Assembly (NCBI GenBank): GCA_001485605.1
Contig: FAON01000006.1
Span: 1-53,097 of the forward strand
Origin: Candidatus Kryptobacter tengchongensis
Lineage (GTDB): Bacteria > Bacteroidota > Ignavibacteria > Kryptoniales > Kryptoniaceae
Direction of reading: 5' to 3'
DNA length: 53,097 nt
How positions within the stretch are numbered: the stretch's first letter is position 1; each line of letters begins with the position of its first letter. The notes beneath the pieces were generated by a model. It did not search any database, was not told the origin of the DNA, and saw only the letters and a program-made list of their open reading frames with translations. Positions 1 through 50,303 of the stretch are shown here, piece after piece. The position numbers were made by a program, and so were the translations under genes.

Positions 1-50
1 TCTTTCAATGTCTTTTGAGGATGTGATTTGGCTATTATTTCATCCACCAT
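1..50 (-). CDS. cas3: Cas3 nuclease-helicase, N-terminal start only (partial)
   Basis: An ATG on the minus strand at position 50 opens a frame reading MVDEIIAKSHPQKTLKE that runs off the left edge of the window. The pattern I-x-AKS-x-P-x-K-TL-x-E resembles the usual beginning of the HD-nuclease domain of Cas3, which nicks and degrades DNA recruited by Cascade. It overlaps the end of cas5 by 16 bases, and cas3 is the expected next gene after cas5 in type I-B (Tneap) operons. Only 16 complete codons are visible, so the call rests on order plus a short motif. Confidence 0.55.
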   Translation of the reverse strand, partial: MVDEIIAKSHPQKTLK

Positions 51-739: not shown

Positions 740-1634
740 TATATGCCTTTACTACCTCCTCTTTAATTTTGTCCAAAGTCTCAAAAGGGGATTCATTAAT
801 GCCCAAATCGTCACCAAATTCTCCTTTTTGGATTCCTTTGAATGTGAAATTCTCTATTTTTCTTTTATTTTTTTCATCAATCTTATATTCTGTTTCAAGG
901 ACTTGTTTTATCCCTTCCCATTTTATGTAAGGTTTAGAACCTTTAAACTCTATATTTACAGCGTTATGGAAAAATGGAGATTTTATATGATATACTCCAC
1001 CAATTATAAAGAGAGGTATTAAACTTTCTCTTTTTCCTCGTATGTCACGAAATAGGAATTTAGTGGCTTCTATCAAGTCGCATACTCTTTTTATTTTTTC
1101 TTCCTTTGTGAGATGATGGTTGAAGTTCTTATCTTCACCGACTCTATCTAAATCAACGGAAAGGGTATATTTGTAATAATTATATCCCGTTTCAATGTTC
1201 GCCATATCAGGATTTCTTTTTAATCTATCCGCAAAATTTTTATTTGTCAAAAGCTCCTGATCACCATACCATGGTTCCAGAGAAATCAAATGTGTTAATT
1301 TAGCGACCGCTGCTCTTGTTTGTGCCTGTTGTCCTTTTCCAGCAGTTATCATATACCCAAAAAGATCTGCTTCTTCTGGAAATTCTTTTCTTAATTGATC
1401 AGGATTATATTGTATTACACCCTCAGCTGGTGTTAATTGTGCATATTTCCATATATTGTGTTCTACTAACCAGTTCACTATAGAATATCTTAACGCCTGC
1501 CGAGAAGTAAAAAGATAAGTTTCTCCACTACCTCTATGAACCTTTTTTGCTATAGAGACATTTCCATACCCTTCATCATAATTACATGGAAATGCCTTAA
1601 CAATATAAGTTATTGTTAGAGATGGTCTATTCAT
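729..1634 (-). CDS. cas7: CRISPR Cascade backbone subunit Cas7 (Cst2/DevR family)
   Basis: This 301-residue protein begins MNRPSLTITYIVKAFPCNYDEGYGN and continues with GSGETYLFTSRQALRYSIVNWL, matching the Cst2/DevR branch of Cas7. That branch forms the repeated crRNA-binding filament of type I-B Cascade. The Thr/Ser-Arg-Gln-Ala-Leu-Arg segment near residues 43-49 is characteristic of the family. The gene starts 8 bases inside the end of cas8 and its own stop overlaps cas5. The C-terminal tail (residues about 255-301) is Lys/Glu rich. No frameshift or missing segment is apparent. Confidence 0.85.
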   Translation of the reverse strand: MNRPSLTITYIVKAFPCNYDEGYGNVSIAKKVHRGSGETYLFTSRQALRYSIVNWLVEHNIWKYAQLTPAEGVIQYNPDQLRKEFPEEADLFGYMITAGKGQQAQTRAAVAKLTHLISLEPWYGDQELLTNKNFADRLKRNPDMANIETGYNYYKYTLSVDLDRVGEDKNFNHHLTKEEKIKRVCDLIEATKFLFRDIRGKRESLIPLFIIGGVYHIKSPFFHNAVNIEFKGSKPYIKWEGIKQVLETEYKIDEKNKRKIENFTFKGIQKGEFGDDLGINESPFETLDKIKEEVVKAYNEQ

Positions 1635-3390
1635 TGTTCACCTCCTTTTTATTTATCTCTAGTTCTTGTTTTTCTGTGCTTTCAGGATTTATAAATCCTG
1701 TTAAAAAAGCTAAAGCTTTCTCTTGAAAGGAAACTTCTTCACTTTCTGTTAACAATGAAAAAAGAGTTTCTGGAACAGGTTTTTTATATACTACAAAGAG
1801 CCTTAGGAGTTCATTATAAAAATCTTCCTTTCTTGCTCCTCTGATTAATGTTAAAAACCTTTGAGAAATATGAAATCGCTTCTCCTTATCAATCTCCTCT
1901 AGTGAAAAACTAATTCTTCCTGCCTCTTGAATACCCTTCAATATCCCATAAGATGTTTTTGCACTCATGTTTGACCTCCTCTTTTGGTTTATTAAAAATT
2001 CTAATAAAATTATGCTCCATATAGGGAGCAAATAAGTATCTTTATCCTTGATTTTCTCAGAAAGCATTTTAAAGGCAATATAAATTAAAGGTTTTTTCTC
2101 TAACAATCTTTTTAATATTTCCGTTGAAAGATATACTTCATTATTTTTATAAATCTCATACCTGAAAGAAAGATTTTTAAAAAGCTCCCTGACATCAAAT
2201 TCACTAAATACTTCGGCAAATGCTTTATCAATATTAAAATATACAAATTTAGGTTTTCCTTCCTTCTTATTCGGCGATGTCTTTATTTCTGCAAAGTAAG
2301 TATTTTCCAATAACCATCTTGTCTTTTTTTCTGAAATAGTTAAGATTAATTCAAGGGATTTCATATAGGTGTTAATCCTTTCGGTAATCGTTCCAAACTG
2401 ATAGTTCTTAAATTCCTCTTGAATTTTATTGTTCACATAAAATGCTTCTTTAAAAGATGGATAATTTACAAAAATATAATCTGTCCCATCCAATTCCCTC
2501 AGTGGAAAAGGTTTTAAATTAAAACCTGCAAATGCACAAAGAAGAAGTAACTGACATAAAGAGCATTTTCTATTGTAAGAAATACCATCCTTGCTGTAAT
2601 AATGGTAGAAATTAGCGAATTTCTTACTACTAATACCCAAAATAGAAAAATCACCTTCAGCAAGTTCTGAAATATTTTTTTCTGAATATTTATTACCACA
2701 AAAATTACACAATATATCTCCAGATTTAACTCCTATCACAGGAAGTAAATACTTATCCTTAAATTCTTGGGGTCTTCCCAATCTCTTTCCTTTTGGATTT
2801 GCAACTACACTTTTGTTAAAATAAAAACTACCTAAAAAATCAGCCTGAGTTTTAAATTCAACAATTGAATTAAAAAACTCTTCAAAATTCTTCTCAATTT
2901 TATTGATGTTTTGTTCTATCTTTTTATCTTTCTCTTCTTTAAAGATATTTTTTAACTCTTCCTTAATTTCATTAAGTTTTTGAGATAAAATATTTCGTAT
3001 ATCGTTTATCATTTCTACAAAATCATTCCAATCTTTATTCGCCTTAATACTAAGAATTTTATTTTGAATTTCATTTTCGCTTTCTTTTACTTTGCTTTCT
3101 ACTTTCCCTATTTCATTTCTCTCCTCCTCGCTCCCTTTATTCTTAAGATTTTTAACAAAACTTGTCAGCTCTCTTAAAGAAAATCTTTGCATTAAATATA
3201 GCTTGGAGACATATTCAAAATAGTAAATTTCAAAATTATCCAATGCTGTTTTTTCTATCTCAACACTTCCATCATCTTTAAATTCAAAAGTATCTCCCTT
3301 TCCTGCAAACTCCAGCACCCTCAAAAATCCGACAACTCCTGCGTTATAAAGCCAGTTGGATGGATATAAAATTATTTTGTTTTGCTGCAT
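1627..3390 (-). CDS. cas8: CRISPR Cascade large subunit Cas8 (Cst1, CXXC-CXXC type)
   Basis: The protein has two cysteine pairs, CNFC and CSLC, about 45 residues apart in its middle third. This is the hallmark of the Cst1 (CXXC-CXXC) family, the large subunit of type I-B Tneap systems, expected to recognise the PAM and bind target DNA. A Lys/Glu-rich coiled-coil stretch separates the N-terminal part from the zinc-binding region. I place the start at the ATG at 3390 (MQQNKIILYPSNWLYNAG), because family members begin close to the YP-x-NWL-x-N-x-G motif. An ATG at 3438 would add 16 residues and overlap cas6. The chosen start leaves a 16-base gap to cas6. The product is about 587 residues. Confidence 0.8.
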   Translation of the reverse strand: MQQNKIILYPSNWLYNAGVVGFLRVLEFAGKGDTFEFKDDGSVEIEKTALDNFEIYYFEYVSKLYLMQRFSLRELTSFVKNLKNKGSEEERNEIGKVESKVKESENEIQNKILSIKANKDWNDFVEMINDIRNILSQKLNEIKEELKNIFKEEKDKKIEQNINKIEKNFEEFFNSIVEFKTQADFLGSFYFNKSVVANPKGKRLGRPQEFKDKYLLPVIGVKSGDILCNFCGNKYSEKNISELAEGDFSILGISSKKFANFYHYYSKDGISYNRKCSLCQLLLLCAFAGFNLKPFPLRELDGTDYIFVNYPSFKEAFYVNNKIQEEFKNYQFGTITERINTYMKSLELILTISEKKTRWLLENTYFAEIKTSPNKKEGKPKFVYFNIDKAFAEVFSEFDVRELFKNLSFRYEIYKNNEVYLSTEILKRLLEKKPLIYIAFKMLSEKIKDKDTYLLPIWSIILLEFLINQKRRSNMSAKTSYGILKGIQEAGRISFSLEEIDKEKRFHISQRFLTLIRGARKEDFYNELLRLFVVYKKPVPETLFSLLTESEEVSFQEKALAFLTGFINPESTEKQELEINKKEVNNE

Positions 3391-3406
3391 ATCTTTCACA
3401 CCCTGT

Positions 3407-4150
3407 TTAGGTTCCCTTGTATAAATCAACCATTCCAAATCCTTCCCCTCTCCTTGAGCCTAACCCAGCTTTATTTACAAGGTTCAGGATATGCGGATCA
3501 GATTCCAACGAGAAAACCCCAACGAAACCAGGAAACTTCAAATTTCCATATTTTGTCATATGTTTAACGACAATCTTTCTGAGGTTTATTGATTTGAACT
3601 CAGCTTTAGTTGGTTCAATGTTAAGCAAATTTCTTGCAAGTTCATTCAAGTTGAATTTGAAAGCTTCATAGAAATCTTCATCACCTTTGAAATTTTTGCA
3701 CTCAGGACAAAGATAGTGATTTTGGTTTTTATGACTTCTTATCAAAACGGGGGAAAGAGTTTTGAAGATAGCGAATGAACCTTTTATTTCCCTTTTCTCC
3801 ACAAATCTCATATGTGAAACCTCAAAACCCCGATTGAAGATATTGACATGTTTATTTTTGACGAGGTAGTTATAAACATAGATTTCATATTCTAACTCAA
3901 AAGAACTGAACTTAAACTCAATTGGCTTCATAAAGAATATCTTATCATTCTCAACCTTCATCTCATTCCCGAAGGAAACTGCAAATGTGTATGGCTTAAC
4001 GGTTCTTCTATTAAACATCAGCTCATATTGAATTTTTGATTCACTCTCAATGGCACTTTTGATAATTGACATGAATCCAGGTCTGTAATCAACAGGTAGA
4101 TAAATTCCCCCTTCGTTTGAAGCCTCAGTTATGAAGGTAACATCAAGCAT
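3407..4150 (-). CDS. cas6: CRISPR pre-crRNA endoribonuclease Cas6
   Basis: This 247-residue protein ends with the glycine-rich loop GLGSRRGEGFGMVDL, the diagnostic C-terminal motif of Cas6 RAMP endonucleases, which cut CRISPR transcripts within the repeat. The N-terminal half carries the family features YLPVDYRPGFMSIIKSAI and a SPVLIRS segment at mid-length. Cas6 is the first gene of the visible cas operon, and the 58 bases upstream separate it from a methyltransferase gene on the same strand. The catalytic histidine cannot be assigned with certainty by eye. A leader and repeat array would be expected nearby but none occurs in this window. Confidence 0.85.
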   Translation of the reverse strand: MLDVTFITEASNEGGIYLPVDYRPGFMSIIKSAIESESKIQYELMFNRRTVKPYTFAVSFGNEMKVENDKIFFMKPIEFKFSSFELEYEIYVYNYLVKNKHVNIFNRGFEVSHMRFVEKREIKGSFAIFKTLSPVLIRSHKNQNHYLCPECKNFKGDEDFYEAFKFNLNELARNLLNIEPTKAEFKSINLRKIVVKHMTKYGNLKFPGFVGVFSLESDPHILNLVNKAGLGSRRGEGFGMVDLYKGT

Positions 4151-29431: not shown

Positions 29432-30586
29432 TTAAAGATATTTTAATCCAGAAGCAGTATTAAAAATGACGACAACATCTTCCCTTTTCACAAATCCATC
29501 CGAGACAAGTTTTTCAACAGCCACTGCCGTTGCTGAACCCTCAGGGCAAAGGAAAATTCCTTCAAACTCAGCTATTTGCTTCATCATTTTAAGCATATCC
29601 TCATCCTCAACTTCAAGTGCAAAACCTCCGCTCTCACGGATAATTTTAAGAATTAGTCTATCCGCAAAAGGCTTTGGCACACGCAAACCATATGCGATTG
29701 TTTTCGCATCTTCCCAAAACTCAGCTCGTTCCTTCCCTTCCTTAAAAGCCTTAACAATCGGAGCACACCCAGATGATTGAACCGCAACCATCTTTGGAAA
29801 CTTTTTCTCAATCAAACCTGATTTAATCATTTCTTCAATAGCAAGCCATATCCCTATAAGACCTGTTCCACCGCCAGTTGGATAAATTATCCAATCGGGA
29901 ACTTCCCAGCCAAGTTGTTCAACAATTTCAAACCCAAGTGTTTTCTTACCCTGCAAACGATACGGTTCCTTCATAGTTGAAATATCAAAAAATTCACTTC
30001 TACTTTGAACTATCTTCCCAGCATCTGAAATCAAACCATCAACAAGAGTAACTTCAGCACCATAAAATTCGCACTCCTTCAAAATCAATTGTGGTGTATC
30101 TTTCGGTGCACTCACAAAGCATTTAATCCCTGCTTTAGCACAATAAGCACTTAAAGCACTTCCAGCATTCCCAGCAGTTGGCAAAGCAATTTTTTCAATT
30201 CCAAGCTCAAAAGCCTTTGAAACAGCGCACGACAAACCACGAGCCTTAAATGAAAGAGTTGGATTAAACGATTCATCCTTCAAATACAAATTATCCAACT
30301 CAAGCATACTGCCAAACTTTTTCAACTTCAAAAGAGGCGTCCACCCCTCACCCAAGCTTATCACATTTTTCTCATCAATAACAGGCAAAAACTCAAAATA
30401 TCTCCACATGCTTGAAACCCTGCTTTTAAAGCTATCTCTATCAACACTTTCCCTTATCGCATCATAATCATAAACAGCTATCAATGGCGCATTACAATTT
30501 TGGCAAAACCTCTGCACTTGTGTATGCTCAAAAATTTCACCACAAACTGAACATTTCAGATAAATTATAAACGATTTCATTTCCAC
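29432..30586 (-). CDS. thrC: threonine synthase
   Basis: This 384-residue PLP fold-type II enzyme has an N-terminal zinc-ribbon-like region (C12-x2-C15 and C28-x2-C31). Then come LGEGWTPLLKLKKFG, the PLP lysine K114 in SFKARG, and TAGNAGSALSAYCAKAG, which holds the phosphate-binding loop. The C-terminal half has YPTGGGTGLIG and an FLCPEGSATAVAV segment. It converts O-phosphohomoserine to threonine. Its start lies 50 bases inside the upstream eIF2B-like gene, which suggests coupled expression. A start two codons later (ATG at 30580) is possible. Confidence 0.88.
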   Translation of the reverse strand: MEMKSFIIYLKCSVCGEIFEHTQVQRFCQNCNAPLIAVYDYDAIRESVDRDSFKSRVSSMWRYFEFLPVIDEKNVISLGEGWTPLLKLKKFGSMLELDNLYLKDESFNPTLSFKARGLSCAVSKAFELGIEKIALPTAGNAGSALSAYCAKAGIKCFVSAPKDTPQLILKECEFYGAEVTLVDGLISDAGKIVQSRSEFFDISTMKEPYRLQGKKTLGFEIVEQLGWEVPDWIIYPTGGGTGLIGIWLAIEEMIKSGLIEKKFPKMVAVQSSGCAPIVKAFKEGKERAEFWEDAKTIAYGLRVPKPFADRLILKIIRESGGFALEVEDEDMLKMMKQIAEFEGIFLCPEGSATAVAVEKLVSDGFVKREDVVVIFNTASGLKYL

Positions 30587-31433
30587 TTCTGTATTTATTT
30601 ACAAGGATTCCAGCATCAGTTATATAATACCCAATAAATTTGGAGCTTACAATCTCAAAAATAACATCCAAAGTCTCAACACCCCCGCTTTTTCCGATTT
30701 CAAAACATTGTTTAAAAAATTTTCTCTCAATCGCTTTCCTGTTTACAAACTTTGAGAAATCACCAAGAACTATCGTATCCTTCCCTTGCATTCTCGCAAT
30801 TTTAAAAATTGTCAATGTTCCAGCTTTGTTGAGAACATCTCCATTTTTAAAAATTGCATCGCACCCAGAAACCACCTGATCAACTTCCTTAAGGACAAAG
30901 TCGGCACCAAAATCATTCACCAAAAAAACTTTAAATTTTTCATCAACAAGTTTTCTTGCCATCTCATCACCCTCACACCTTGGACACGAGCGAAAAACAT
31001 AAACCTTTGAGATTCTATCTTTCGCATAAGAAAGACACCTCAACACAGTCCCACTGTAGCTTAAAGTTGCAATTGAAACTTTCTTAAAGTTATTCTCATC
31101 AAGCCATATCAAAAAATTTTCCGCAACTTTTTCACTTGCATTTTTAAATCTTTCCTCAACTTTCCTGATAGTTAAAAGCATCTCGCTTTTATCCCCTCTC
31201 ATCAAAGCCAAACGAACGAACTCAACAAGATTTTGAAGTTGAAACAAAAGCGGATGATATCTTTTTAAATCATTTTTTAAATTCCCAATGAAACGCAAGA
31301 ACTCTTTTTTACTTTTGCTCTCCACCGCCAACTTCTCCAAAACATCAAACAACTCTTCGGCAAGAATTGATGCTCCCGATTTTTTATCCCCGTATATTCT
31401 TTTCAACCTAACATCAATCTTCCCACTCACCAT
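30537..31433 (-). CDS. eIF2B/MtnA-superfamily protein, catalytic cysteine absent
   Basis: This 298-residue protein matches the eIF2B alpha/MtnA/ribose-1,5-bisphosphate isomerase fold. It has an alpha-helical N-terminal part (1-110), then VSIATLSYSGTVLRCL, VYVFRSCPRCEGDEMARKL, SGCDAIFKNGDVLNKAGT and a C-terminal conserved region. In the isomerases the loop after the first strand holds a catalytic Cys; here it is Ser125 or Ser127, while the later Asp192 is kept. It is therefore more like the eIF2B subunits or a non-isomerase. It overlaps thrC by 50 bases. A real mtnA gene is also in this window. Confidence 0.7.
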   Translation of the reverse strand: MVSGKIDVRLKRIYGDKKSGASILAEELFDVLEKLAVESKSKKEFLRFIGNLKNDLKRYHPLLFQLQNLVEFVRLALMRGDKSEMLLTIRKVEERFKNASEKVAENFLIWLDENNFKKVSIATLSYSGTVLRCLSYAKDRISKVYVFRSCPRCEGDEMARKLVDEKFKVFLVNDFGADFVLKEVDQVVSGCDAIFKNGDVLNKAGTLTIFKIARMQGKDTIVLGDFSKFVNRKAIERKFFKQCFEIGKSGGVETLDVIFEIVSSKFIGYYITDAGILVNKYRSGNEIVYNLSEMFSLW

Positions 31434-32258: not shown

Positions 32259-33662
32259 TTAAAACCTATATCGCAGGGTCAAGATAAAGTTCTTTGCTTT
32301 GTTATCCTCATTTGTGATTAAGCTATAGTAATCGCTTCCAAGTTTATAGCTATATTGAGTATGTATTGTGCTCCACTTTCCACTTATGTAGGCAAAATCA
32401 ATTAAAAGCGTCTTTTGTAAAAGAACGGTAAATCCAGAAGTTAGAAGTTTTGTAGCCCTGCTTGAAATCCCCTTATCTTCTGCATAAGGCGAGGGTCTGT
32501 AGCTATACCCAACTCTTACTTTAACTTGCTGTAGAAACGGAATCATGACCTCAACGCCACCACTTAAGCTTACGGTCTCCGTGAATATCTCTTTTATATC
32601 TCTATTAAGTTGAATTAAATCTGGGTTATTTTTGAACTCCATTTGACGCCAATCAACATAAACGACATCGCCTGCAACGAGAACTGCATCTTTCAAATTA
32701 AAAGATAACCCAGCACCAAAATAAAACGGGGAAAGCACACTATATTTTGAAATCCCAGAATAAGAATATGAATACGAATCGCCATTATCAAAAGAACTTT
32801 CCCCGCTTCTTGAATAATTTTCCTTAACACTCAAAGATGCCGGCAATCTCGTCATCAATCCAATTCTAAAGAAATTGCTTCTATACATTAAACCAGCGTT
32901 CGCTGAAAAACCACTTACAGTTGCGTCAATTATATCCGAAACCGTTAATTGAGCAAAATCCCACGGGAAATTTTTATAAAAATCTCTTGTATCGGCTTCA
33001 ATAAATCTTCTATCATACTTATAATTTCCAGTCACAATTGAAATCGTAGCTCCAGCTGATAAATTTTCCGCTATATCAATAGCGCCTGAAACAAACCAAT
33101 GATTTAACCCACCACTTTCATACAAAGTTATCTTTTGCTGAACATTGTTTAAAATCTGAGTTGCCCCTGTTGAATCTTCAAGTCCAAGTTTCCAAGCAAG
33201 ATCAAATTCAGGGTTAGGATCATAAAGCGATGGAACAATGGAACTTTGAGAATTGAAAAGAGAAATTGAAAGAGTCCCCGTGAAATCAGAAACACGCACA
33301 TACCCACCTGCGAAGACCAAACTTCCACGAATTGTTGGAACAGGAAGAACAAGGGCAACTGTATTTAAATTTGTTGTGGTATTCTCAAATGAATTTGAGT
33401 AATCAAAAACCCTTGCAGAATTAGTAAGCGATAAATGATTCAAACCACCTGCAAATTCAAACCTTCTTATTTGAGCAAGCCCCGCTGGATTCCAAAAAAT
33501 TGATGAATAATCATCTGAAACGCCAATGTATGCAAATCCAAACCCAGTTGCTCTCGCTCCAACACCAAAATTTAACATTGAATATCTAAGAGCGTCATCG
33601 GGAAATTGTGCAAAGGTGAAATTAAAAAGTAAAATTATTAAAACTAACGCTAACTTTTTCAT
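32259..33662 (-). CDS. outer-membrane beta-barrel protein (PorV/FadL-like)
   Basis: This 467-residue protein has a signal peptide ending near FTFAQ and the opening MLNFGVGARATGFGFAYIGVSDDYSSIFWNPAGLAQI. That segment is the hallmark of the UPF0164/PorV and OmpP1-FadL type barrels common in Bacteroidota and Chlorobiota. The rest is a series of beta strands ending in a C-terminal Phe (LTLRYRF), the usual signal for outer-membrane insertion. In type IX secretion PorV helps deliver proteins to the surface, but this one may instead be a hydrophobic-substrate channel. It overlaps the small lipoprotein upstream by four bases. Confidence 0.8.
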   Translation of the reverse strand: MKKLALVLIILLFNFTFAQFPDDALRYSMLNFGVGARATGFGFAYIGVSDDYSSIFWNPAGLAQIRRFEFAGGLNHLSLTNSARVFDYSNSFENTTTNLNTVALVLPVPTIRGSLVFAGGYVRVSDFTGTLSISLFNSQSSIVPSLYDPNPEFDLAWKLGLEDSTGATQILNNVQQKITLYESGGLNHWFVSGAIDIAENLSAGATISIVTGNYKYDRRFIEADTRDFYKNFPWDFAQLTVSDIIDATVSGFSANAGLMYRSNFFRIGLMTRLPASLSVKENYSRSGESSFDNGDSYSYSYSGISKYSVLSPFYFGAGLSFNLKDAVLVAGDVVYVDWRQMEFKNNPDLIQLNRDIKEIFTETVSLSGGVEVMIPFLQQVKVRVGYSYRPSPYAEDKGISSRATKLLTSGFTVLLQKTLLIDFAYISGKWSTIHTQYSYKLGSDYYSLITNEDNKAKNFILTLRYRF

Positions 33663-34210
33663 TTTCTTCTTGAACCAATGTTTCTTTTACCTTCAGATTC
33701 TTTATTCCCATCTTTATTTTGTTCCCTTGAATCTCCACTCGTTGAAGACCGAAAACCTGATTGATCTCCTCTATCGTTTGTCGTCTTGGCTTTCCCCATT
33801 GAAGATGATGAACTATCTCCCTCAATCCCAGAAGTAGATTTTGGAGGAGTCCTCGTCGGTGGCGGTGGAGTAAACGAACTATTACCTGAGGCAGTTCTAT
33901 GAGAGCCAAATTCCCTCTGTCTTTCGGAAGGCATCTCCATATTTTGAGTACGAGCGGTATCAACATAATTCCCAGACCACCAAAACCACCACGGTGAATT
34001 ATAATAAGCCCAAGGTGATGCAGTATGCGCTGGAACTAAATCATAGAAATAATTTAATTCAGAAACCGAATGGCATCCGGCACAATCACTTCTGTAAGAA
34101 ATATGCGAAGTGTAAACTTCACCAGATGAATCAATATAATTAACCTCAGGATGCTTTATAACAGTATAGCAACCTGATAAAACTAAAACTACAAGAATTA
34201 ATTTTTTCAT
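33659..34210 (-). CDS. lipoprotein with a single CxxCH motif and Ser/Arg-rich tail
   Basis: The 183-residue protein starts with a lipobox (LVLSGC, C14). It contains C43-A-G-C46-H47, the classic covalent haem-c attachment motif, about 30 residues after the anchor. A Trp/Tyr-rich stretch follows (SPWAYYNSPWWFWWSGNY). The last 90 residues are low-complexity Ser/Gly/Arg/Lys, probably disordered, ending IGSRRK. A single CxxCH in a lipoprotein may mark a cytochrome-like electron carrier, but no other cytochrome feature is visible. It overlaps its neighbour, which has the same tail type, by four bases (ATGA), so both are made together. Confidence 0.6.
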   Translation of the reverse strand: MKKLILVVLVLSGCYTVIKHPEVNYIDSSGEVYTSHISYRSDCAGCHSVSELNYFYDLVPAHTASPWAYYNSPWWFWWSGNYVDTARTQNMEMPSERQREFGSHRTASGNSSFTPPPPTRTPPKSTSGIEGDSSSSSMGKAKTTNDRGDQSGFRSSTSGDSREQNKDGNKESEGKRNIGSRRK

Positions 34211-35184
34211 CTTCTATTTCCTATATGTCTTTTCTGCTCCTGCCTTTGCTCGGGTTGTGAAAATCCCGTTGAACTACTTGGCTGACCTCGCAAAGATGAA
34301 TTATTCAAAACATTCGGCAAATCATGTTTTGGCATCTCAATCAATGTGTTTCTTCCAGTTTCATAATTTCTGTAAATTTGAATTAAACCTCTATTTGCTC
34401 CCATTCTTCTGGGTTGCTCTGTTCTGCGAGGTGGCGTTGAATCCTGCCTTGGTGTCCCTGAGTTCCCATCGTTTGATCTCGGCACGACTCTCGGAGTTGA
34501 AGGAGTTCGCGTTGAACCTTCACCACGCGTTCTTTCACCACCACCTCTCTCAACTGCTGGCGTCCTTCCTCCAGAACTTGATGATTTCCTTAAACTTCCT
34601 TCATCAGAAGATCCACTTTGCACACTTCCTCCAGAACCTCTCAATGGCGCATTCCTTGATGGTTGTGCCACACTTTGCGAACTTGATTCAGTTTTCATCC
34701 TTTCATCACGCACCCCTTCTCGCGTTGAACCAAAATTTCTTGATCTAAACACAACTGTCCTTCCACCACCAGAGTAATACGGATAATTATTGATTACCAC
34801 GATCACAGGAGCTCTATACCACCATGGATAATAATACCAGGTCGGAAGATACCAGTATAGATCCCACCAATAATATCTGTCCCACCAATACCAGTTCCAC
34901 CAGTAATAATCAAACCAGTACGGGTCATAATACCACCATTCGCCCCAACCAATAGCAAAACTTGGAGTATAATACCTGAAAAATAGATAATACCTCGGAT
35001 ATGGTAGATAATAACGATAAACATACCGCTGATAATACCATCCAGCGTAGTCATAATTCTCGGAATAGTATTTATACTCTGGTTTAGAAGTTGAGTATCC
35101 CTCGTCTTCTTTCAGCGTTCCAATTTGAGTATAACAACCCCAGAATAAAGCACTAACAAACGCTATTAAAATTATTTTTTTCAT
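34207..35184 (-). CDS. Trp/Tyr-rich lipoprotein
   Basis: The 325-residue protein has a lipobox (LFWGC, C17). A short linker is followed by a stretch from about residue 38 to 125 dominated by aromatic residues: between W83 and Y123, 28 of 41 residues are Trp or Tyr. The C-terminal 170 residues are a low-complexity Ser/Gly/Arg/Pro tail ending with RHIGNRR, like the tail of the next gene. No catalytic motif is seen. The DNA reads in one frame with normal codons, so it is not a sequencing artefact. It may form a surface layer, adhesin or haem/ring-compound-binding layer. Function is unknown. Confidence 0.6.
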   Translation of the reverse strand: MKKIILIAFVSALFWGCYTQIGTLKEDEGYSTSKPEYKYYSENYDYAGWYYQRYVYRYYLPYPRYYLFFRYYTPSFAIGWGEWWYYDPYWFDYYWWNWYWWDRYYWWDLYWYLPTWYYYPWWYRAPVIVVINNYPYYSGGGRTVVFRSRNFGSTREGVRDERMKTESSSQSVAQPSRNAPLRGSGGSVQSGSSDEGSLRKSSSSGGRTPAVERGGGERTRGEGSTRTPSTPRVVPRSNDGNSGTPRQDSTPPRRTEQPRRMGANRGLIQIYRNYETGRNTLIEMPKHDLPNVLNNSSLRGQPSSSTGFSQPEQRQEQKRHIGNRR

Positions 35185-35256: not shown

Positions 35257-36012
35257 TCAAAATGACTGAATATACTCAAGTTTAACAACTCTTGAATTTC
35301 CAGGCTCCTTATTACGCAAAATATCTTTCCAGTTAAATTCAATTGTAAACCCATTCCCAAGCGACCACCTTATTCCAGCATTTAAATAACCCTTTCCGCT
35401 TCCGATTGCATTTACAGAGTTATCATTTACAGCAAAATTATATTCAGCTGAAAATGTTAAGTCATTCCCAATTGTTTTATCAAAGCCAATATAATAATTC
35501 ACCGATGCATCCCCATCATCTTTTTCAAGTGAGTAATTTACGCCCCCATGAATTGATGAGTAACCAAAAAATTTAAACGACTTGCTACCGACTAAGAAAA
35601 AACCCGGAGACTTAAATTCATACCTTTTTAAATTATCAATGTATCTTTCCCTTCCTTGCGAGTCAAATCCAAGCGCGAGCGCTGGAAAATTTTTTGTTTC
35701 ATCAATTATTCTAATTTTTAAATTTACACCGGGAAGTTTATACCAATTAACATTTCCATCACCGATTATTTTGCTACCGCCGTATGAAATTCCGAAATTA
35801 AGACGATTAAATGCTGAAGCTGTAAGCCTTAGCATAAGTCCCCCATCTGCAAAGAAGTCCGCATCAAGCGAAACACTGTTTGATTTCAAAAGTCCAGCTG
35901 TGGGCATATCAACTATAAATCTTTGCTGAAATGTAGCCCCCGCGCCCGCTGAGCTTTGTGAGAACACATACTCAGAAAATAGAACGAGTAAAAATACAAA
36001 AACTTTTTTCAT
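35257..36012 (-). CDS. outer-membrane beta-barrel protein, function unknown
   Basis: The chosen start is ATG 36012, with GGAGAA two bases upstream. It gives about 251 residues with a signal peptide (KKVFVFLLVLFSEYVFSQ) and a barrel of repeated strands such as RLTASAFNRLNFGISYGGSK and GYLNAGIRWSLGNGFTIEFNWKDIL. A longer frame from 36075 would place the signal peptide internally. It resembles small outer-membrane barrels found beside surface clusters in Chlorobiota. It is 72 bases upstream of the Trp/Tyr-rich lipoprotein gene and may be co-transcribed with it. Confidence 0.65.
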   Translation of the reverse strand: MKKVFVFLLVLFSEYVFSQSSAGAGATFQQRFIVDMPTAGLLKSNSVSLDADFFADGGLMLRLTASAFNRLNFGISYGGSKIIGDGNVNWYKLPGVNLKIRIIDETKNFPALALGFDSQGRERYIDNLKRYEFKSPGFFLVGSKSFKFFGYSSIHGGVNYSLEKDDGDASVNYYIGFDKTIGNDLTFSAEYNFAVNDNSVNAIGSGKGYLNAGIRWSLGNGFTIEFNWKDILRNKEPGNSRVVKLEYIQSF

Positions 36013-36094
36013 TTCTCCGCCAACTGAATTTTGAATTCTTAACTCAAAGATAATAAAAATTTTCCAGCTTGTCAATCTTTGAACTTAAAAACAA

Positions 36095-38476: not shown

Positions 38477-39538
38477 TCAGTCGTGAGATTTGTTCTCTTC
38501 TTTAATTTTTTGAATATTTTCTTCAAAAGGTGGATAAATAATCCCAAGTTCAGTTATAATCGCCGTTATCAAGTGATTTGGCGTGACATCAAAAGCTGGA
38601 GAAAATGTCTTAACACCCTCTGGGGCGATCCTTTTCCCCATTATTTCCACAATTTCATCCGAACCCCGCTCTTCAATCGGTATCTCATCTCCGCTCTTCA
38701 TATTGAAATCAATTGAAGATGTTGGACAGGCAACATAAAAAGGTATATTATGATACTTTGCAGATATCGCAAGATTATAGGTTCCAATTTTATTCGCTGT
38801 ATCACCGTTAAGCGCAACTCTATCCGCTCCAACGATAACACAATCAATTTTCCCAAGTTTCATAAGATAAGCCGACATGTTATCAGTTATCAAGATTGTT
38901 TCAATTCCTCTCTGCATCAATTCCCATGTTGTAAGCCGAGCCCCCTGAAGAAGCGGACGGGTTTCATCAACATAAACTTTTATCTTCTTACCTTGCTCAA
39001 AAGCAGTGTAAATTATCCCAAGCGCAGTACCATAATCACCAGTTGCAAGCCATCCTGTATTACAATGAGTTAAAATACCTGCTTCATCAGGGATTAACTT
39101 CGCTCCATTTAAACCTATCTGTCTACACATCTGTATATCTTCTCTCTGAATTGAAAGCGCCTCATTAAGCAGTTTATCTTTTAGATTATTTACCTCAAGA
39201 TGTAAATTTTCATAGAAAACCTTTCTCATCCTATCAATAGCCCAAAATAAATTCACCGCCGTCGGTCTGGTCCTTGCAAACTCATCACATACGCTTTCAA
39301 AAACAACTTTCAACTTCTCTTTATCATCACCGTTAAAATTTTTAATTCCAAGGTAAATCCCAAACCCCGCTGCAATCCCAATTGCTGGTGCACCACGAAT
39401 TTTAAGTTTTTTTATAGCATCAATCAAAACTTTGTAATCTTCCGTTTCAACAAGAACGAGTTCAAGCGGTAATTTAGTCTGATCAATAAACCTGAACTTT
39501 CCTTCATCCCAATCTATTGAGCGCAATCTTGAACCCAT
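38477..39538 (-). CDS. mtnA: S-methyl-5-thioribose-1-phosphate isomerase
   Basis: This 353-residue protein has the MtnA motifs: RGAPAIGIAAGFGIYLG, the catalytic-cysteine loop LTHCNTGWLATGDYGTALGII, VYVDETRPLLQGARLTTWEL, and the aspartate motif GADRVALNGDTANKIGT. It isomerises MTR-1-P in methionine salvage. All catalytic residues are present, in contrast to the eIF2B-like protein at 30.5 kb. The next gene, recO, starts at the base after its stop. tRNA-Ile2 lies 50 bases upstream on the plus strand. Confidence 0.93.
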   Translation of the reverse strand: MGSRLRSIDWDEGKFRFIDQTKLPLELVLVETEDYKVLIDAIKKLKIRGAPAIGIAAGFGIYLGIKNFNGDDKEKLKVVFESVCDEFARTRPTAVNLFWAIDRMRKVFYENLHLEVNNLKDKLLNEALSIQREDIQMCRQIGLNGAKLIPDEAGILTHCNTGWLATGDYGTALGIIYTAFEQGKKIKVYVDETRPLLQGARLTTWELMQRGIETILITDNMSAYLMKLGKIDCVIVGADRVALNGDTANKIGTYNLAISAKYHNIPFYVACPTSSIDFNMKSGDEIPIEERGSDEIVEIMGKRIAPEGVKTFSPAFDVTPNHLITAIITELGIIYPPFEENIQKIKEENKSHD

Positions 39539-43716: not shown

Positions 43717-46700
43717 ATGAGGGTTATTCCAGACATAATTGATAATGACAAATATAAACTATCTGACATTTTAATTGAACTTATAAATGAAAATTCCTCA
43801 GTTTATATCGCTACTGGATATTTTAATTTAAGCGGTTTTGATCTAATAAAGGATAAACTTAAAATTGCAAAAGAAGTAAAGATTTTAATAGGTAAAGTTC
43901 CAGAATCTATTATAACCTCTGAACAACTGGAATCAATAATTCAGGAAGAGATTGAAGAAAGGTCCGACGAGATAGAAATTGTAAATTTAGTTCAGGAGTT
44001 TGCTTCATTTATTGATAAAGAAAATGTTGAAATTAAAATTTATAAAGATGGGTCGTTTCATGGCAAATTTTATGTGATAGATGGTGGAATACCTACCGTA
44101 GGGTCAATTGCTATAGTAGGTTCTTCAAATTTTACCTATGCTGGTCTTACAAGCAACAGGGAATATAACAGTGTTGTTAAACAAATTGATTCGGTTAACA
44201 GCCATAAACAAAAGTTTTTAGAAATTTTTAATGAAAAATCAGAAGATTATAAGCCTACTTTGCGTTCCCTGCTTTCAAGATTTCTCTATCAATATTCCCC
44301 CTATGAGATTTATATGAAAATTCTTTACTCATATTTTGAAGATAAATTGGCTGAATCGCCAGGCGATGACATAAGCCCCATAATCCTTGCAGATTTCCAG
44401 AGAGATGGATATATATCAGCATTACAATCTCTTGAAAAATATGGTGGTGTGCTTTTGGCTGATTCTGTGGGACTTGGAAAGACATACCTCGGTTTAAGAA
44501 TTTTAGATGATTTTGCTTACCGTTTAAGACAAAAGGCTCTTGTAGTTTGTCCAGCACAAATAAAAGATACAATCTGGGAACCAAAGCTCAGGGAATTTGG
44601 GATAAGAGCCGATGTAATATCACAAGAAAAAATCAGCAGAGATTTTGATATTGATAAGTTCAAAGACTATGATCTTATACTTATAGATGAATCGCATAAT
44701 TTTAGGAATTCTAATACCAAGCGCTGGAAAAATCTGTTTCAAACAATTATAGAAGGAAAAAATACCAAGAAAATAGCCCTTTTAACAGCAACTCCTGTTA
44801 ACAACAATATCTTTGACCTTTACAACCAAATAAGATTTATAACCAGAGATAATGATGAATTTTTCAAATCAGTGGGAATAAATAGTTTATGGGGATATTT
44901 CTTAAAAGCTCATTTTGATAGAGAAACACTTTACGACCTCCTTGAAGAAATCGCCGTCAGAAGAAGCAGACAATTCATCAAAAAGTATTATCCTAATGCG
45001 GTAATAGATAATCATCCCATTAAGTTCCCAGATAGAGAACTTCATACAATTAAATATCACCTTACCGAAGTTTATGCAGGAATCTACAAATATTGCGTTG
45101 AGGCAATAGAATCTCTCACGTTGGCAAGTTACAATCTAGATGTATTCAGAAAGGAAATTTTTAACCAAAAACTTCAAGAATTTGAAAAAATAAAAAAATA
45201 CTTTAAAGGAAAAGGGTGGGATGATAAAAATATTCAAAAATTATTGATGCAAATTGGTAGAAGCAAGGCACTTATAGAAATACTTAAAATACTCCTACTG
45301 AAACGACTTGAATCAAGCATAGAAGCTTTCAGAATAAGTATCTCTAAACTACTTCATTTTCAAAAAACATTTCTTGAAACAATTAAAAAAGGTAAAATTT
45401 TTGACAGGGAAACTTATAGAAATTTCTTTTTATCTCAATCAACTGATGAAGAAAGCGAAGAAAATCAAACTGTACATTTAAAAGACATAGATCCCGATGA
45501 ATATGAAATTGATGAAATTATAAAAAGAACTGAAGAAGACATAAAAATTCTTGAAAATATCCTTAATAAACTCAATATCACCCCGGATAAAGATGTAAAG
45601 CTCCAGAAACTTGTTGAGACACTCGTTGAGTTAAAAAATAAAAAAGTTGTAATTTTTGGATATTTCAAAGATACAATGAGATATATTTATAATTACATCT
45701 CCCAAGATAAAGTACTTAATCAGCTTGGCATTTCAAAAGAAAAAATAGGTATTGTTGACAGTGAAATAAAACCGGAAAAGAGAAAAGAAACAATAGTGCG
45801 ATTCTCACCGCTATCAAATGGTAGAAAAGATTTGAGCAAGGATGAAGAGATACAAATTTTGTTCTCAACCGATGTTCTCTCAGAGGGACAAAATTTACAG
45901 GATGCAGATACAATTATTAATTATGATCTTCCCTGGAACCCTGTAAAAATTGTTCAAAGAATTGGAAGGCTTGACAGAATTGGCTCGCCATATGATGTAA
46001 TACATGTATATAACTTCTTTCCAGAAGATGAACTTGAATCACTCCTCGGACTCTTACAGCGCCTCTATGAAAAACTTGACGCCATTAATAGAAGTGTAGG
46101 GCTTGATTCATCTGTGCTTGGAGAACCACCTAATCCAAAAGATTTTGGTTACATCAGAGATATATTCGCTCAGAAAAAAGCAGTGTTTGATGAACTTGAA
46201 CAATTATCCGAACTCGCCATGGGTGAATTTATGAAGGATGAATTATTAAAATATCTCCAACAAGAAGGATGGAAAAAAATTAGCAAAATCCCCAATGGTG
46301 TGGGAAGTGGTATAAGAAGAGAAAATAAGAAAGGAGTATTCGTTGCATTTAAAGATAAAGAAAGACATTACTGGTATTTTTATGATTTAAACGAAGATAA
46401 AATAATTGAAAATAGATTGGAATGTATAAAAATAATAAGATGTTCAAAAGACGAACCTTTTGTTGAGCCCCCACCTGATATAAATCTTTATAAAGTTATA
46501 AAGAAAGTAAAAAATCATATAATTTCTCGCTTAAAAACATCACAGGTAAAACCTGTGAAACTTGCTCCGCCTCAAAACATTATCGTTAATTACCTTCAAT
46601 CCCTTACGACTAAACCCAAGGACTTAATTGAATATTATTCAACGCCCTTACCTGAAATATATCTTAGAGAGCTAAAAAAATTGTGGACACTTTCTAAGAA

Positions 46701-46833
46701 TTTTAATGAAAATATGATACTGAAAGAACTTGAAGAGTTTAAAAACAAGCATCCCCTTGTTAATAGAGAAACAGTTGATAAACAAGAAGAAATAAAATTA
46801 AAACTGATCGCTTTTATAACTGTATCACAATAA
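43717..46833 (+). CDS. PLD-domain/SNF2-type helicase, putative defence protein
   Basis: The 1038-residue protein has an N-terminal phospholipase-D-like domain (residues about 15-160) with one HxK box in FHGKFYVIDGG and the GSSNFTYAGLTSNREYN segment. A superfamily 2 SNF2-type helicase follows: motif I DSVGLGKT (249-256), DESH at D324, LLTATPVNNN, and the C-terminal QRIGRLDRIGS (motif VI, about 746-757) with TDVLSEGQNLQDADTIINYDLPWN before it. The last 250 residues are Lys/Glu rich. It is followed 23 bases later by a large methyltransferase gene. Together they look like a two-gene DNA-processing defence unit; activity is inferred. Confidence 0.8.
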   Translation: MRVIPDIIDNDKYKLSDILIELINENSSVYIATGYFNLSGFDLIKDKLKIAKEVKILIGKVPESIITSEQLESIIQEEIEERSDEIEIVNLVQEFASFIDKENVEIKIYKDGSFHGKFYVIDGGIPTVGSIAIVGSSNFTYAGLTSNREYNSVVKQIDSVNSHKQKFLEIFNEKSEDYKPTLRSLLSRFLYQYSPYEIYMKILYSYFEDKLAESPGDDISPIILADFQRDGYISALQSLEKYGGVLLADSVGLGKTYLGLRILDDFAYRLRQKALVVCPAQIKDTIWEPKLREFGIRADVISQEKISRDFDIDKFKDYDLILIDESHNFRNSNTKRWKNLFQTIIEGKNTKKIALLTATPVNNNIFDLYNQIRFITRDNDEFFKSVGINSLWGYFLKAHFDRETLYDLLEEIAVRRSRQFIKKYYPNAVIDNHPIKFPDRELHTIKYHLTEVYAGIYKYCVEAIESLTLASYNLDVFRKEIFNQKLQEFEKIKKYFKGKGWDDKNIQKLLMQIGRSKALIEILKILLLKRLESSIEAFRISISKLLHFQKTFLETIKKGKIFDRETYRNFFLSQSTDEESEENQTVHLKDIDPDEYEIDEIIKRTEEDIKILENILNKLNITPDKDVKLQKLVETLVELKNKKVVIFGYFKDTMRYIYNYISQDKVLNQLGISKEKIGIVDSEIKPEKRKETIVRFSPLSNGRKDLSKDEEIQILFSTDVLSEGQNLQDADTIINYDLPWNPVKIVQRIGRLDRIGSPYDVIHVYNFFPEDELESLLGLLQRLYEKLDAINRSVGLDSSVLGEPPNPKDFGYIRDIFAQKKAVFDELEQLSELAMGEFMKDELLKYLQQEGWKKISKIPNGVGSGIRRENKKGVFVAFKDKERHYWYFYDLNEDKIIENRLECIKIIRCSKDEPFVEPPPDINLYKVIKKVKNHIISRLKTSQVKPVKLAPPQNIIVNYLQSLTTKPKDLIEYYSTPLPEIYLRELKKLWTLSKNFNENMILKELEEFKNKHPLVNRETVDKQEEIKLKLIAFITVSQ

Positions 46834-46856
46834 AAAATAAAAGAGGAGGTATAGTT

Positions 46857-49800
46857 ATGCAAATATCAATAAAAGATTTTAAAGACATAGCACAAATATT
46901 TTATGAAAAAGGCTATAAAAACAATTTTTCCCAAATTGACAAATCACAATATGAGCTTCCTCAAAAGGCTAATGAATTAATCCAAGATTTTTATATCATC
47001 TCTGATTACACAAAGTTTCAAATTTATTTAGCATTAATTCCAGCTCTTAGGAGAACAGATTTCAGAACCATTCTTGAACCATTTTACCGCAGATATCCTC
47101 AGGTTAATACGCTTTTCGTTTTCACCCTAAAAGATTTTTCTGAAATTGCGCTTGTTAGTCCCCTAAGGGTTTCAACCGGTCCTGGTAGCTTTAAACTTCT
47201 TTTAAGAACTCTTTATATTGACCCAAGCTATCTTTATCATACTGACCAAGAAGTCCTTGAATTAATTAGAATCTCATCCTCTGAACAGACCCCTGATAAA
47301 ATCTGGGAAAAACATCAAAATGCATTTGATGTTGAAAGAGTAACAGAAGAATTTTTTGAAGCGTATAAACATGCACTTGAAAAGATTAAAGAAATTTTGA
47401 AAAGACAAAGAAAGGGAAATTCTTTAATATGCCACTCCTTTGCTCAACAGCTTCTTTCAAGGATAATGTTCCTCTATTATGTACAAAAAAAGGGATGGCT
47501 TAAATGGAAAGACTATACCCAAGATAAAAAATACATCAAAAATCTCTGGGAAAAATATAAATCATATTCAAGTAATTCTAAAAAAGATACTTTTTATTCT
47601 GAATGGTTATCAAGTTTATTCTTTGGAGCATTTAATAAAAAGCAAACTTTTATATCAAAAAAACTGCCTGAAGAAGTTAAAGAATCATTTGCTCTTATGC
47701 CTTTTTTAAACGGTGGGCTTTTTTCAAAAAATGAACTTGATGAGGTAGGATTCCATGTCCCTGATGAAGTTTTTTCACTCCTTTTTGATACTTCACCATT
47801 TGACAAAAATAAAGGATTTTTAGAAAGATTTAATTTCACAGTCCGAGAAGATACACCCCTTGATGTTGAAGTTGCAGTTGACCCCGAAATGCTTGGCAAA
47901 GTTTATGAATCTTTAGTAACTGAAGAGGAAAGAGAAAGTAGTGCCATTTTTTATACTCAGAGAATTGAAATTGACCTTATGTGTAGGATCTCTCTCGTTG
48001 AATATCTTGCTACAGAAACGGGAATAAATAAAGAAAAAATTATTGACTTTATTTTTGATCCACACAATAGAATTTTTCAATTTTCAAAAGAGGAATTAAA
48101 AGAGATAAAAGAAAAACTGGATAAGGTAAAAATTGTTGATCCAGCAGTGGGTTCAGCATCATTCCTTGTTGGTATGATGAATGTCCTTGTAGAACTCCAC
48201 TCTGTATTAACTAAACAAATTGAAGAAAGAGAGGAAAACCTTTTTGCATTAAAGCAAAGAATTATTCAGGAAAATCTCTATGGAGTTGATGTAAAGGATT
48301 GGGCTTGTATGGTTGGAGAGCTACGATTGTGGCTTTCTTTAATTATAGAAACTGAAGAAAAATATATGGATATTTATACAAAACCACTTTTGCCAAATCT
48401 AAATTTTAAAATAAGGCAAGGCGATTCACTTGTTGAAGAAATTGCAGGAATCCAGTTAAGTTTAAGAGGAGAAACTTCAAGATACTTGCCAAAATCAATT
48501 GAAACAAAAATTAAAGAGCTTATAGATAAGAAAAATGCCTTTTTCTCAGGACAAAGAAGTGCAGATTTAAGAGAAATTGAAGAAATTGAAAAACTTGAGC
48601 ATGATATTTTTACTGAGATTCTGGATGAAAAAGTTAAAGACCTTTCAAAAAAAATTGAAAATCTTAAAAATATAAAGAGGAAATTAGAGGGTCAAAAAGA
48701 TGTTTTTGGCAAAGAGGACAAAAAAGCAAAAGATGAAATAAAAAAGATTGAAGCAGGAATTGAAGAATTAATAAAAGAAAAAGAGAGATATGAATTTGGT
48801 TTAAAAAATCTTAAACGAAAAACCAGAAAGGATTATTTCCTATGGGAGGTTGATTTTGCAGAGGTATTTGCTGAAAGAGGAGGTTTTGATATTGTAATAG
48901 GTAATCCACCTTATGTAAGACAGGAGCTTATTGCCCCACCTCTGGAAAATAAAGATAATTATACTGATGAAAAGTGGAAAGAATTAAAAAGCGAATACAA
49001 AGAAAAACTCATTAATTCAGTTAAAAATATCTGGAGTGATGTCAAAAAGATAGACAAAAAAAGTGATTTATATGTTTACTTTTATTATCATGGACTATCA
49101 CTTTTAAAGCCAAAAGGAATTTTTTGTTTTATAACTTCTAATTCATGGCTTGATGTCGGTTATGGTGCAGATCTTCAAGAATTTTTATTAAAAAATATGA
49201 AGCCAATTTATATAATTGACAATTTAAAAGAGCGTTCTTTTAAAGAAAGTGTAAATACAGTTATTGTTTTAATCCAAAGACCAGAAGAAAAATTAGATGA
49301 TTATACCATAAAATTTGTTGCCTTTAAAAAGTCCTTTGAAGATGTAATAAATGCAGAAGTCATGAAAAAGATTGATAAAGCAGATAAACCTATTTTTGAT
49401 GATGAAGATTTTAGAATTTTTCCAAAAACAAAAAAAGAACTTCTGCTTGAAGGTGTTGAGGAGCCTGAAGAAGAAGGTTTAATTAAAGACCCCGAATATC
49501 TTCCTTATATTGGCAACAAGTGGGGCGGAAAATATTTAAGGGCACCGGAAATTTATTTTAAGATTTTGGAAAAAGGAAAAGATAAACTGAACCCCCTTTC
49601 CACATTTGCAAAAATTATAACTGGATTTAAAGAATCTGGTTATTCTGTATATATTTCTGATTATAAAATAGGGGAGTATCCTATTTTAAAAGATCCTAAA
49701 GTTCATAGAAAGATAACAATCACCACACCGGACCATTGTATATTTAATAAGTATCGTGAGAAAGTTGAAAAAGCTAAAAGAAAAAAGGCTCCAATTCTTT

Positions 49801-50303
49801 GGTTAGCAATGAGAGGGAAAAGGCATATTTGTTATATTAATAAAAATTTTTATTCCTTCACTGGAAATTTTTTCGGCATTATTCCCAAAATTCCTGAACA
49901 AGAAGTATTTATTCTTGGATATTTGAATTCCACCATTTCATTACTTTTTGCAGAAATTTATGGAAGAAAAGGATTTGGTGGTGGAGCTACTATTCTTGTA
50001 GGTATAGATTTAAAGATGTTACCTATTGTTAATCTTGAAATTTTATCTAATCAAGAACAACAATATATTGAAAATGCCTTAGACAGGTTAAAAAATAGAG
50101 AAATCTACTCCATCTTCACTGAGCTTGGTTTTGACCCAGATAAGCCCATCCGTGAGCAGGAGCCAAATCCACTTCCAGATAGAAAAGCCCTTGATGATAT
50201 TGTCTTTGATGCGCTTGGATTAACAGAAGAGGAACGAAAAGAAGTCTACTGGGCAGTTGCCGAACTTGTAAAAACAAGGTTAGAAAAAGCGAGGAGTGTT
50301 TGA
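46857..50303 (+). CDS. Eco57I-type adenine-specific DNA methyltransferase, large
   Basis: The 1148-residue protein has methyltransferase motif I V-D428-P-A-V-G-S-A (usually GSG) and the catalytic N683-P-P-Y in DIVIGNPPYVRQE, the mark of N6-adenine methylation. Before these are 400 residues with a helical region (HSFAQQLLSRIMFLYYVQKKGWLKW), and between them a coiled coil (about 555-655). The C-terminal part (about 840-1060) resembles a TaqI-type target-recognition domain, ending GLTEEERKEVYWAVAELVKTRLEKARS. Together with the PLD-helicase gene this resembles BREX/DISARM-type methyltransferases rather than a simple type II enzyme. A nuclease motif is not evident. Confidence 0.8.
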   Translation: MQISIKDFKDIAQIFYEKGYKNNFSQIDKSQYELPQKANELIQDFYIISDYTKFQIYLALIPALRRTDFRTILEPFYRRYPQVNTLFVFTLKDFSEIALVSPLRVSTGPGSFKLLLRTLYIDPSYLYHTDQEVLELIRISSSEQTPDKIWEKHQNAFDVERVTEEFFEAYKHALEKIKEILKRQRKGNSLICHSFAQQLLSRIMFLYYVQKKGWLKWKDYTQDKKYIKNLWEKYKSYSSNSKKDTFYSEWLSSLFFGAFNKKQTFISKKLPEEVKESFALMPFLNGGLFSKNELDEVGFHVPDEVFSLLFDTSPFDKNKGFLERFNFTVREDTPLDVEVAVDPEMLGKVYESLVTEEERESSAIFYTQRIEIDLMCRISLVEYLATETGINKEKIIDFIFDPHNRIFQFSKEELKEIKEKLDKVKIVDPAVGSASFLVGMMNVLVELHSVLTKQIEEREENLFALKQRIIQENLYGVDVKDWACMVGELRLWLSLIIETEEKYMDIYTKPLLPNLNFKIRQGDSLVEEIAGIQLSLRGETSRYLPKSIETKIKELIDKKNAFFSGQRSADLREIEEIEKLEHDIFTEILDEKVKDLSKKIENLKNIKRKLEGQKDVFGKEDKKAKDEIKKIEAGIEELIKEKERYEFGLKNLKRKTRKDYFLWEVDFAEVFAERGGFDIVIGNPPYVRQELIAPPLENKDNYTDEKWKELKSEYKEKLINSVKNIWSDVKKIDKKSDLYVYFYYHGLSLLKPKGIFCFITSNSWLDVGYGADLQEFLLKNMKPIYIIDNLKERSFKESVNTVIVLIQRPEEKLDDYTIKFVAFKKSFEDVINAEVMKKIDKADKPIFDDEDFRIFPKTKKELLLEGVEEPEEEGLIKDPEYLPYIGNKWGGKYLRAPEIYFKILEKGKDKLNPLSTFAKIITGFKESGYSVYISDYKIGEYPILKDPKVHRKITITTPDHCIFNKYREKVEKAKRKKAPILWLAMRGKRHICYINKNFYSFTGNFFGIIPKIPEQEVFILGYLNSTISLLFAEIYGRKGFGGGATILVGIDLKMLPIVNLEILSNQEQQYIENALDRLKNREIYSIFTELGFDPDKPIREQEPNPLPDRKALDDIVFDALGLTEEERKEVYWAVAELVKTRLEKARSV

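Follow-up and report, generated by a model that had tools for sequence, protein, structure and literature searches.

The window analyzed here is a 53,097-nucleotide stretch of Candidatus Kryptobacter tengchongensis DNA (contig FAON01000006.1), and a block of envelope genes lies on its minus strand. The first gene of the block (35257..36075, likely true start near 36012) encodes a small outer-membrane barrel of about 250 residues, as judged from its neighborhood and weak profile matches to YjbH (13/19) and OMP_b-brl (an OmpA-like match has an E value of 0.011). The mean column identity of this small barrel is 47%. It is followed by P0001 (34207..35184), a putative lipoprotein of 325 residues rich in aromatic residues and Arg, and by P0002 (33659..34210), a second, smaller CYT lipoprotein of 183 residues with a PWW motif, a CAGCH sequence, and a basic C terminus. 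Downstream of these, a predicted 14-stranded outer-membrane barrel of the FadL type is encoded at 32259..33662. Two IF-2B family genes 7 kb apart (30537-31433 and 38477-39538) flank the block on either side; their products cluster together, and the second is MtnA-like. Elsewhere in the window, type I-B CRISPR genes (Cas5, Cas7, Cas8b, and Cas6) occupy the left edge (35-4150), and a low-GC region (43717-50303) carries a defence-like pair of an HKD (phospholipase D-like) protein and a Snf2 helicase (PADLOC C3a139, DrmD-like), together with a type IIG restriction-methylase/DrmMI-like protein.

P0001 was delineated from its open reading frame, its composition, the alignment of its relatives, and an AlphaFold model. 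The reading frame starts with ATG, and a DNA search indicates that the sequence is single in the 2.68-Mb genome. The N terminus consists of a signal peptide (MKK...FWGC) with a lipobox ending in GC, as in bacterial lipoproteins, and the chain is probably anchored by a lipid at Cys17. The CYTQ motif at residues 17-20 (35125..35136) is the best-conserved stretch in the family alignment, and GCYT, including the GC of the lipobox, is invariant in 34 diverse members. The aromatic head (residues 30-140, 34765..35097) contains 34 Tyr, 16 Trp, and 4 Phe residues, and Trp and Tyr make up 45% of Y30-Y140. Within the head, the core from W83 to Y123 (34816..34938; WWYYDPYWFDYYWWNWYWWDRYYWWDLYWYLPTWYYYPWWY) has 14 Trp and 14 Tyr, that is, 28 of 41 residues. 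The background frequency of Trp and Tyr in the open reading frames of the window is 5.2%, and the next-richest 41-residue stretches contain 10 such residues, one of them being located in the adjoining P0002. The binomial probability of 28 in 41 is about 8e-27, and shuffling the 123 bases of the core gave at most 9 in 2000 trials. A chance reading frame is ruled out by these statistics.

The tail (residues 141-325, 34210..34764) differs from the head in composition, with 29 Arg, 28 Ser, 23 Gly, 4 Lys, and zero Trp. It contains repeated R-x2/3-G-x1/2-R motifs and ends in NRR. In the AlphaFold model of P0001, calculated with 34 relatives aligned, the mean pLDDT is 48, the values in the aromatic region are about 35-54, and no domain is predicted, the sole structured elements being a short hairpin at 269-282 and the helix of the signal peptide. 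Disorder throughout the chain is therefore well supported as a prediction, though low pLDDT is also typical of poorly aligned repetitive sequence. The initial annotation had described 28 Trp/Tyr in 41 residues, preceded by another aromatic-rich stretch, on a lipid-anchored chain with a disordered Ser/Arg tail. Its residue counts are exact, and the anchor and the disorder agree with the lipobox and the model, respectively.

Relatives of P0001 occur in Candidatus Kryptonium, Chrysopegis, Thermokryptus, and other Kryptonia (18 named loci, 11-row alignment scan). With family profiles built from the first 11 and then from 34 diverse members, the family was found in 174 of 294 genomes of the class, mostly as a single copy, and in about 109 of 296 genomes of the phylum, mostly one per genome; the phylum count is approximate because some of the weaker matches rest largely on composition. 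The architecture is constant: a signal peptide, GCYTQ, an acidic linker, a Tyr/Trp-rich head, a Ser/Gly/Arg tail, and usually a basic C terminus. Gln is found at position +4 in 49 of 55 members, which were preselected on C[YF]T. None of the 34 diverse members matched a Pfam family or a solved structure, Pfam and NCBIfam hold no entry for the family, and an open-access literature search for such a lipoprotein found none. One weak match of one member to TIGR00934 was set aside as chance. The family is real, unusual, and ancient, and was previously unmodelled and undescribed.

The positions of the aromatic residues should be noted. The reading frame is free of stops in six congeneric species, where the proteins are 56-68% identical to P0001 in the alignment (58-69% in the search). 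All six keep the aromatic positions, the Trp and Tyr sites being 86% identical versus 64% for the other head positions. In the tail, identity within the genus is 51% overall, with 71% for Arg, 46% for Ser, and 49% for Gly. Conservation thus falls on the unusual residues, and the alignment points to conserved stickers and drifting spacers within the genus. Members outside the genus share 21-29% identity with P0001. Of the residues that class members align with its Trp or Tyr columns, 57% are still aromatic, compared with 10% at other columns. The proposal that the aromatic region is under selection holds, as the homologues keep these sites and the region is neither random nor absent in them. 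A drifted repeat of low complexity and no function would fit the repetitive TGG and TAT codons of P0001. However, such a reading is scarcely credible, being already contradicted by the conservation of Trp and Tyr as the best-conserved head sites; the family is also single-copy across the phylum and retains Arg over Lys in AT-rich genomes.

The composition was compared with that of the neighbor genes for 55 members. The heads contain 31% Trp plus Tyr on average, and the median ratio of Trp plus Tyr to Phe is 8.25 versus 0.96 in the neighbor genes. The tails contain on average 17.5% Arg and 2.6% Lys. The tail R/(R+K) is 0.88 versus 0.50 in the neighbor genes and is higher in all 55 members (the Wilcoxon P value for this comparison ignores phylogeny). 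The Arg-rich tail runs counter to the local trend, since the Kryptonia neighbor genes prefer Lys. A loose R-x-G-x-R motif occurs 180 times in the tails versus 63 +/- 8 times in shuffled tails, an enrichment that serves as a lead only because the pattern was picked after looking. Several diverged relatives from other families have at least as much Lys as Arg in their tails (11 Arg and 16 Lys in L143, 2 Arg and 13 Lys in L151), so Arg is not universal. Taken together with the predicted disorder, the preference for Tyr and Trp over Phe and for Arg over Lys and the conservation of stickers above spacers are the features of FUS-type sticker-spacer proteins, apart from the Lys-tailed diverged relatives. 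In FUS, pairing of Tyr with Arg drives phase separation, and Tyr is conserved while the rest drifts (PMC8847598). FUS resembles the present family in having a Tyr-rich N-terminal part and an Arg/Gly-rich C-terminal part. Contrarily, the P0001 family is bacterial, appears to be lipid-anchored outside the cytoplasm, uses Trp besides Tyr and Ser/Arg instead of RGG, and has no homology to FUS. Self-association of the lipoprotein through such stickers seems to us evenly poised between true and false.

The conserved neighbor of the lipoprotein, and its candidate partner, is the FadL-type barrel, which the initial annotation did not mention. Among the 41 class loci where gene calling resolved the lipoprotein (three further loci were missed by the calling pattern), 40 carry the barrel on the same strand as the first or second gene downstream, and 37 have the small barrel of about 250 residues ahead of the lipoprotein. 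Gaps within the unit of lipoprotein and barrel are often shorter than 100 bp, and P0001 and P0002 share an ATGA overlap in Kryptonia. In the phylum search, a homologous barrel was found beside the lipoprotein position at 19 of 20 loci. All 16 loci with a resolved lipoprotein reading frame have the barrel as the next or next-but-one gene downstream on the same strand, and three of the four loci where calling did not resolve the lipoprotein have a barrel gene beside the profile match. In the 294 class genomes, as counted by hand from lists, 171 have both genes, three the lipoprotein only, 40 the barrel only, and 80 neither (Fisher odds ratio 114, P 2e-37, a P value that ignores shared ancestry). 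Genomes lacking the pair reach barrel scores of no more than about 52 bits, except for one partial match of 59 bits, compared with at least 178 bits where the barrel is present.

Twenty-one loci from barrel-only genomes were inspected. A diverged Trp/Tyr-rich reading frame lies directly upstream of the barrel at 18 of them, two run into a contig end, and one lacks such a frame. The diverged reading frames typically follow the pattern C[SAV]ST ... YFGYNN ... PVxVPWW. These three motifs are common to the diverged branch L138-L155 upstream of the barrel, which lacks CYTQ. The PWW of this branch resembles that of P0002, suggesting that the two may be related. Near-obligate linkage and co-occurrence of the lipoprotein with the FadL-type barrel are thus well supported by gene order and profile searches, and physical pairing of the two proteins is probable. 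Presence is near-universal in some families, which hints at a housekeeping role in the envelope rather than a catabolic one.

The second lipoprotein is less constant. P0002 or its equivalent lies between the lipoprotein and the barrel at the seven Kryptonia and five other loci, and thus adjoins the lipoprotein only in a minority of loci. Its CxxCH motif (DCAGCHS) occurs in all 7 Kryptonia and in L049 and is absent in L066, L069, L070, and L076, so that four of the five homologues outside Kryptonia have lost it. The Pfam cytochrome match scores 13.4 bits against 27. Considering the poor conservation of CxxCH and the score below the cut-off, a c-type cytochrome partner was rejected, and the earlier idea that the aromatic chain is a scaffold for the CxxCH protein is not borne out. 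P0002 may bind metal or heme in some lineages only.

The barrel matches PF03349 (FadL/Toluene_X) with 47.1 bits (cut-off 29.7), has an NPA motif at residue 58, and is modeled confidently as a FadL-type fold (pLDDT 90.5). Its structural neighbors are nearly tied by VIA-align Z score: CymD (35.8), TbuX (35.4), TodX (34.4), FadL (34.3), and BamG (33.1). BamG structures rank first in Foldseek, whereas TbuX, TodX, and CymD are among the first matches of the sequence profile. Three specific identities were rejected. The AupA alkane uptake model (NF041571) matches only 2 of 28 barrels, with a best E value of 1.4e-4, and the window protein is not among them; the score for PorV of the T9SS (NF033709) is 50.7 bits against a cut-off of 90; and that for BamG (NF053685) is 65.8 bits against 250. 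A true BamG scoring 259 bits is encoded elsewhere in the genome. The barrel is a paralogue of BamG, not BamG itself.

The N terminus of the barrel bears on its function. The mature protein starts with QxxxDALR, 39 residues before NPA, a length constant in the 14 proteins compared. In FadL the corresponding distance is 32 residues, with NPA numbered from the mutant names N33/P34, so the barrel extension is 7 residues longer. The N-terminal extension of BamG, about 10 residues long, threads into and fills the lateral opening and meets the N terminus of BamH (PMC12611786, PMC12578637). Simple transport of the FadL type is not secure, because the barrel carries an N-terminal extension such as marks BamG. 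One alternative is a second assembly like BamG/BamH: the barrel would be only a dock with its lateral opening plugged by the extension, and the lipoprotein, as a flexible arm, would tether other outer-membrane proteins or lipoproteins or act as their chaperone, without small-molecule cargo. The BamG score above that of PorV, the Foldseek ranking, and the conserved QxxxDALR extension are in line with this. Furthermore, the BamH N terminus wedges into BamG with its lipid at the BamA-BamG interface, Bacteroides thetaiotaomicron and Flavobacterium johnsoniae have unexplained BamG2/BamH2 paralogues, and Bacteroidota BamA has a disordered Tyr-rich loop. However, the score is far under the BamG cut-off in a genome that has its true BamG, and BamH is a folded crescent, a form that the predicted disorder of P0001 does not match. 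We regard this assembly as unlikely, while giving it more weight than any other alternative.

The side of the membrane on which the lipoprotein lies was considered from the residues after the Cys. The sequence is YTQIGT in P0001, and positions +2 to +6 are almost without acidic residues in the 55 members. By the criterion of acidic residues at +2 to +6 for surface export (PMC12578637), this observation favors the default periplasmic face, though the rule was derived for Bacteroidia and may not hold in Ignavibacteria. With such an orientation, the lipoprotein could be a tether anchored in the periplasmic leaflet of the outer membrane. The head would follow the membrane interface, and the Arg tail with its basic end would bind either anionic lipid of the inner membrane or peptidoglycan, so that the membranes are bridged or the barrel is fixed to the wall. 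A basic C terminus is common, the last residue being Arg in 36 of 55 members, and P0002 and its homologues also end in RR or RK. The C-terminal residues vary, however (Asn, Gln, Pro, and Asp in some), no known peptidoglycan-binding domain was matched in the profile and structure libraries, and a tether leaves the preference for Trp and Tyr over Phe unexplained; we judge it quite improbable. Covalent attachment of the Lpp type to peptidoglycan was rejected, since the last residue of most members is Arg instead of Lys.

The opposite orientation would suit a surface adhesin or a sugar-binding coat, as the initial annotation had offered. Aromatic surfaces can bind sugars, and the acidic residues clustered around +9 to +16 after the Cys could be a shifted export signal. 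Contrarily, no folded carbohydrate-binding site is predicted, and the near-obligate barrel partner would be left unexplained, which makes such a coat very doubtful. Nothing specific was found here in favor of sugar binding, adhesion, or the UV and redox roles also raised.

Several known systems resemble the pair in part. The monoaromatic hydrocarbon channels TodX, TbuX, and CymD are the best profile matches of the barrel with the top structural Z scores, but the scores lie within 3 of FadL and BamG, and identity is 16-18%. To our knowledge, no such lipoprotein accompanies these channels. VolA is, like P0001, a lipoprotein, and it has been connected with the uptake of exogenous fatty acids, in which FadL-type barrels also take part. 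Unlike P0001, it is a folded lysophospholipase. VolA is named as a surface lipoprotein of Vibrio cholerae in PMC9496633. BamG-BamH of the Bacteroidota BAM (PMC12611786, PMC12578637) likewise combines a FadL-type barrel bearing an N-terminal extension with an outer-membrane lipoprotein whose N terminus is highly conserved; it differs in that the window barrel scores under the BamG cut-off in a genome that also encodes a true BamG, P0001 is predicted to be disordered instead of folded into a crescent, and the BamA link is known only for BAM. In Marinobacter alkane uptake (PMC5989066), the FadL homologue AupA and its partner AupB are likewise encoded as a unit of two genes and interact physically, and the system is a precedent for uptake of hydrophobic substrates. 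However, AupB resides in the inner membrane, few of the present barrels match the AupA model and those only weakly, and aupAB is largely confined to marine hydrocarbon degraders.

We tentatively propose, at slightly less than even confidence, that P0001 is a disordered lipoprotein built of stickers and spacers, and that it docks on its one partner, the FadL-type barrel, and forms a cohesive layer there, perhaps with hydrophobic cargo. By analogy with the BamH N terminus on BamG, the lipid and the CYTQ segment would dock on the barrel; the N-terminal extension is proposed as the site because that of BamG meets the N terminus of BamH. Many copies of the lipoprotein might then cohere through cation-pi and aromatic contacts of their aromatic heads and Arg tails, following the grammar of FUS-type proteins, to give a membrane-tethered layer around the barrel. 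Hydrophobic molecules, perhaps aromatic ones, could be captured by such a layer or passed along for the barrel, as a parallel to AupA-AupB and TodX. Handling of hydrophobic cargo by the pair is possible but on the unlikely side. An extracytoplasmic membrane-tethered condensate of the Bacteroidota, in which heads and tails concentrate hydrophobic molecules and feed a dedicated FadL-type channel, is a more remote prospect.

An envelope protein that is conserved in a major phylum, mostly as a single copy, has gone unnoticed, since it reads like low-complexity noise and lacks a family model. The constant link gives an uncharacterized FadL-type barrel a testable partner. If the lipoprotein self-associates outside the cytoplasm, sticker-spacer chemistry would be organizing an outer membrane.
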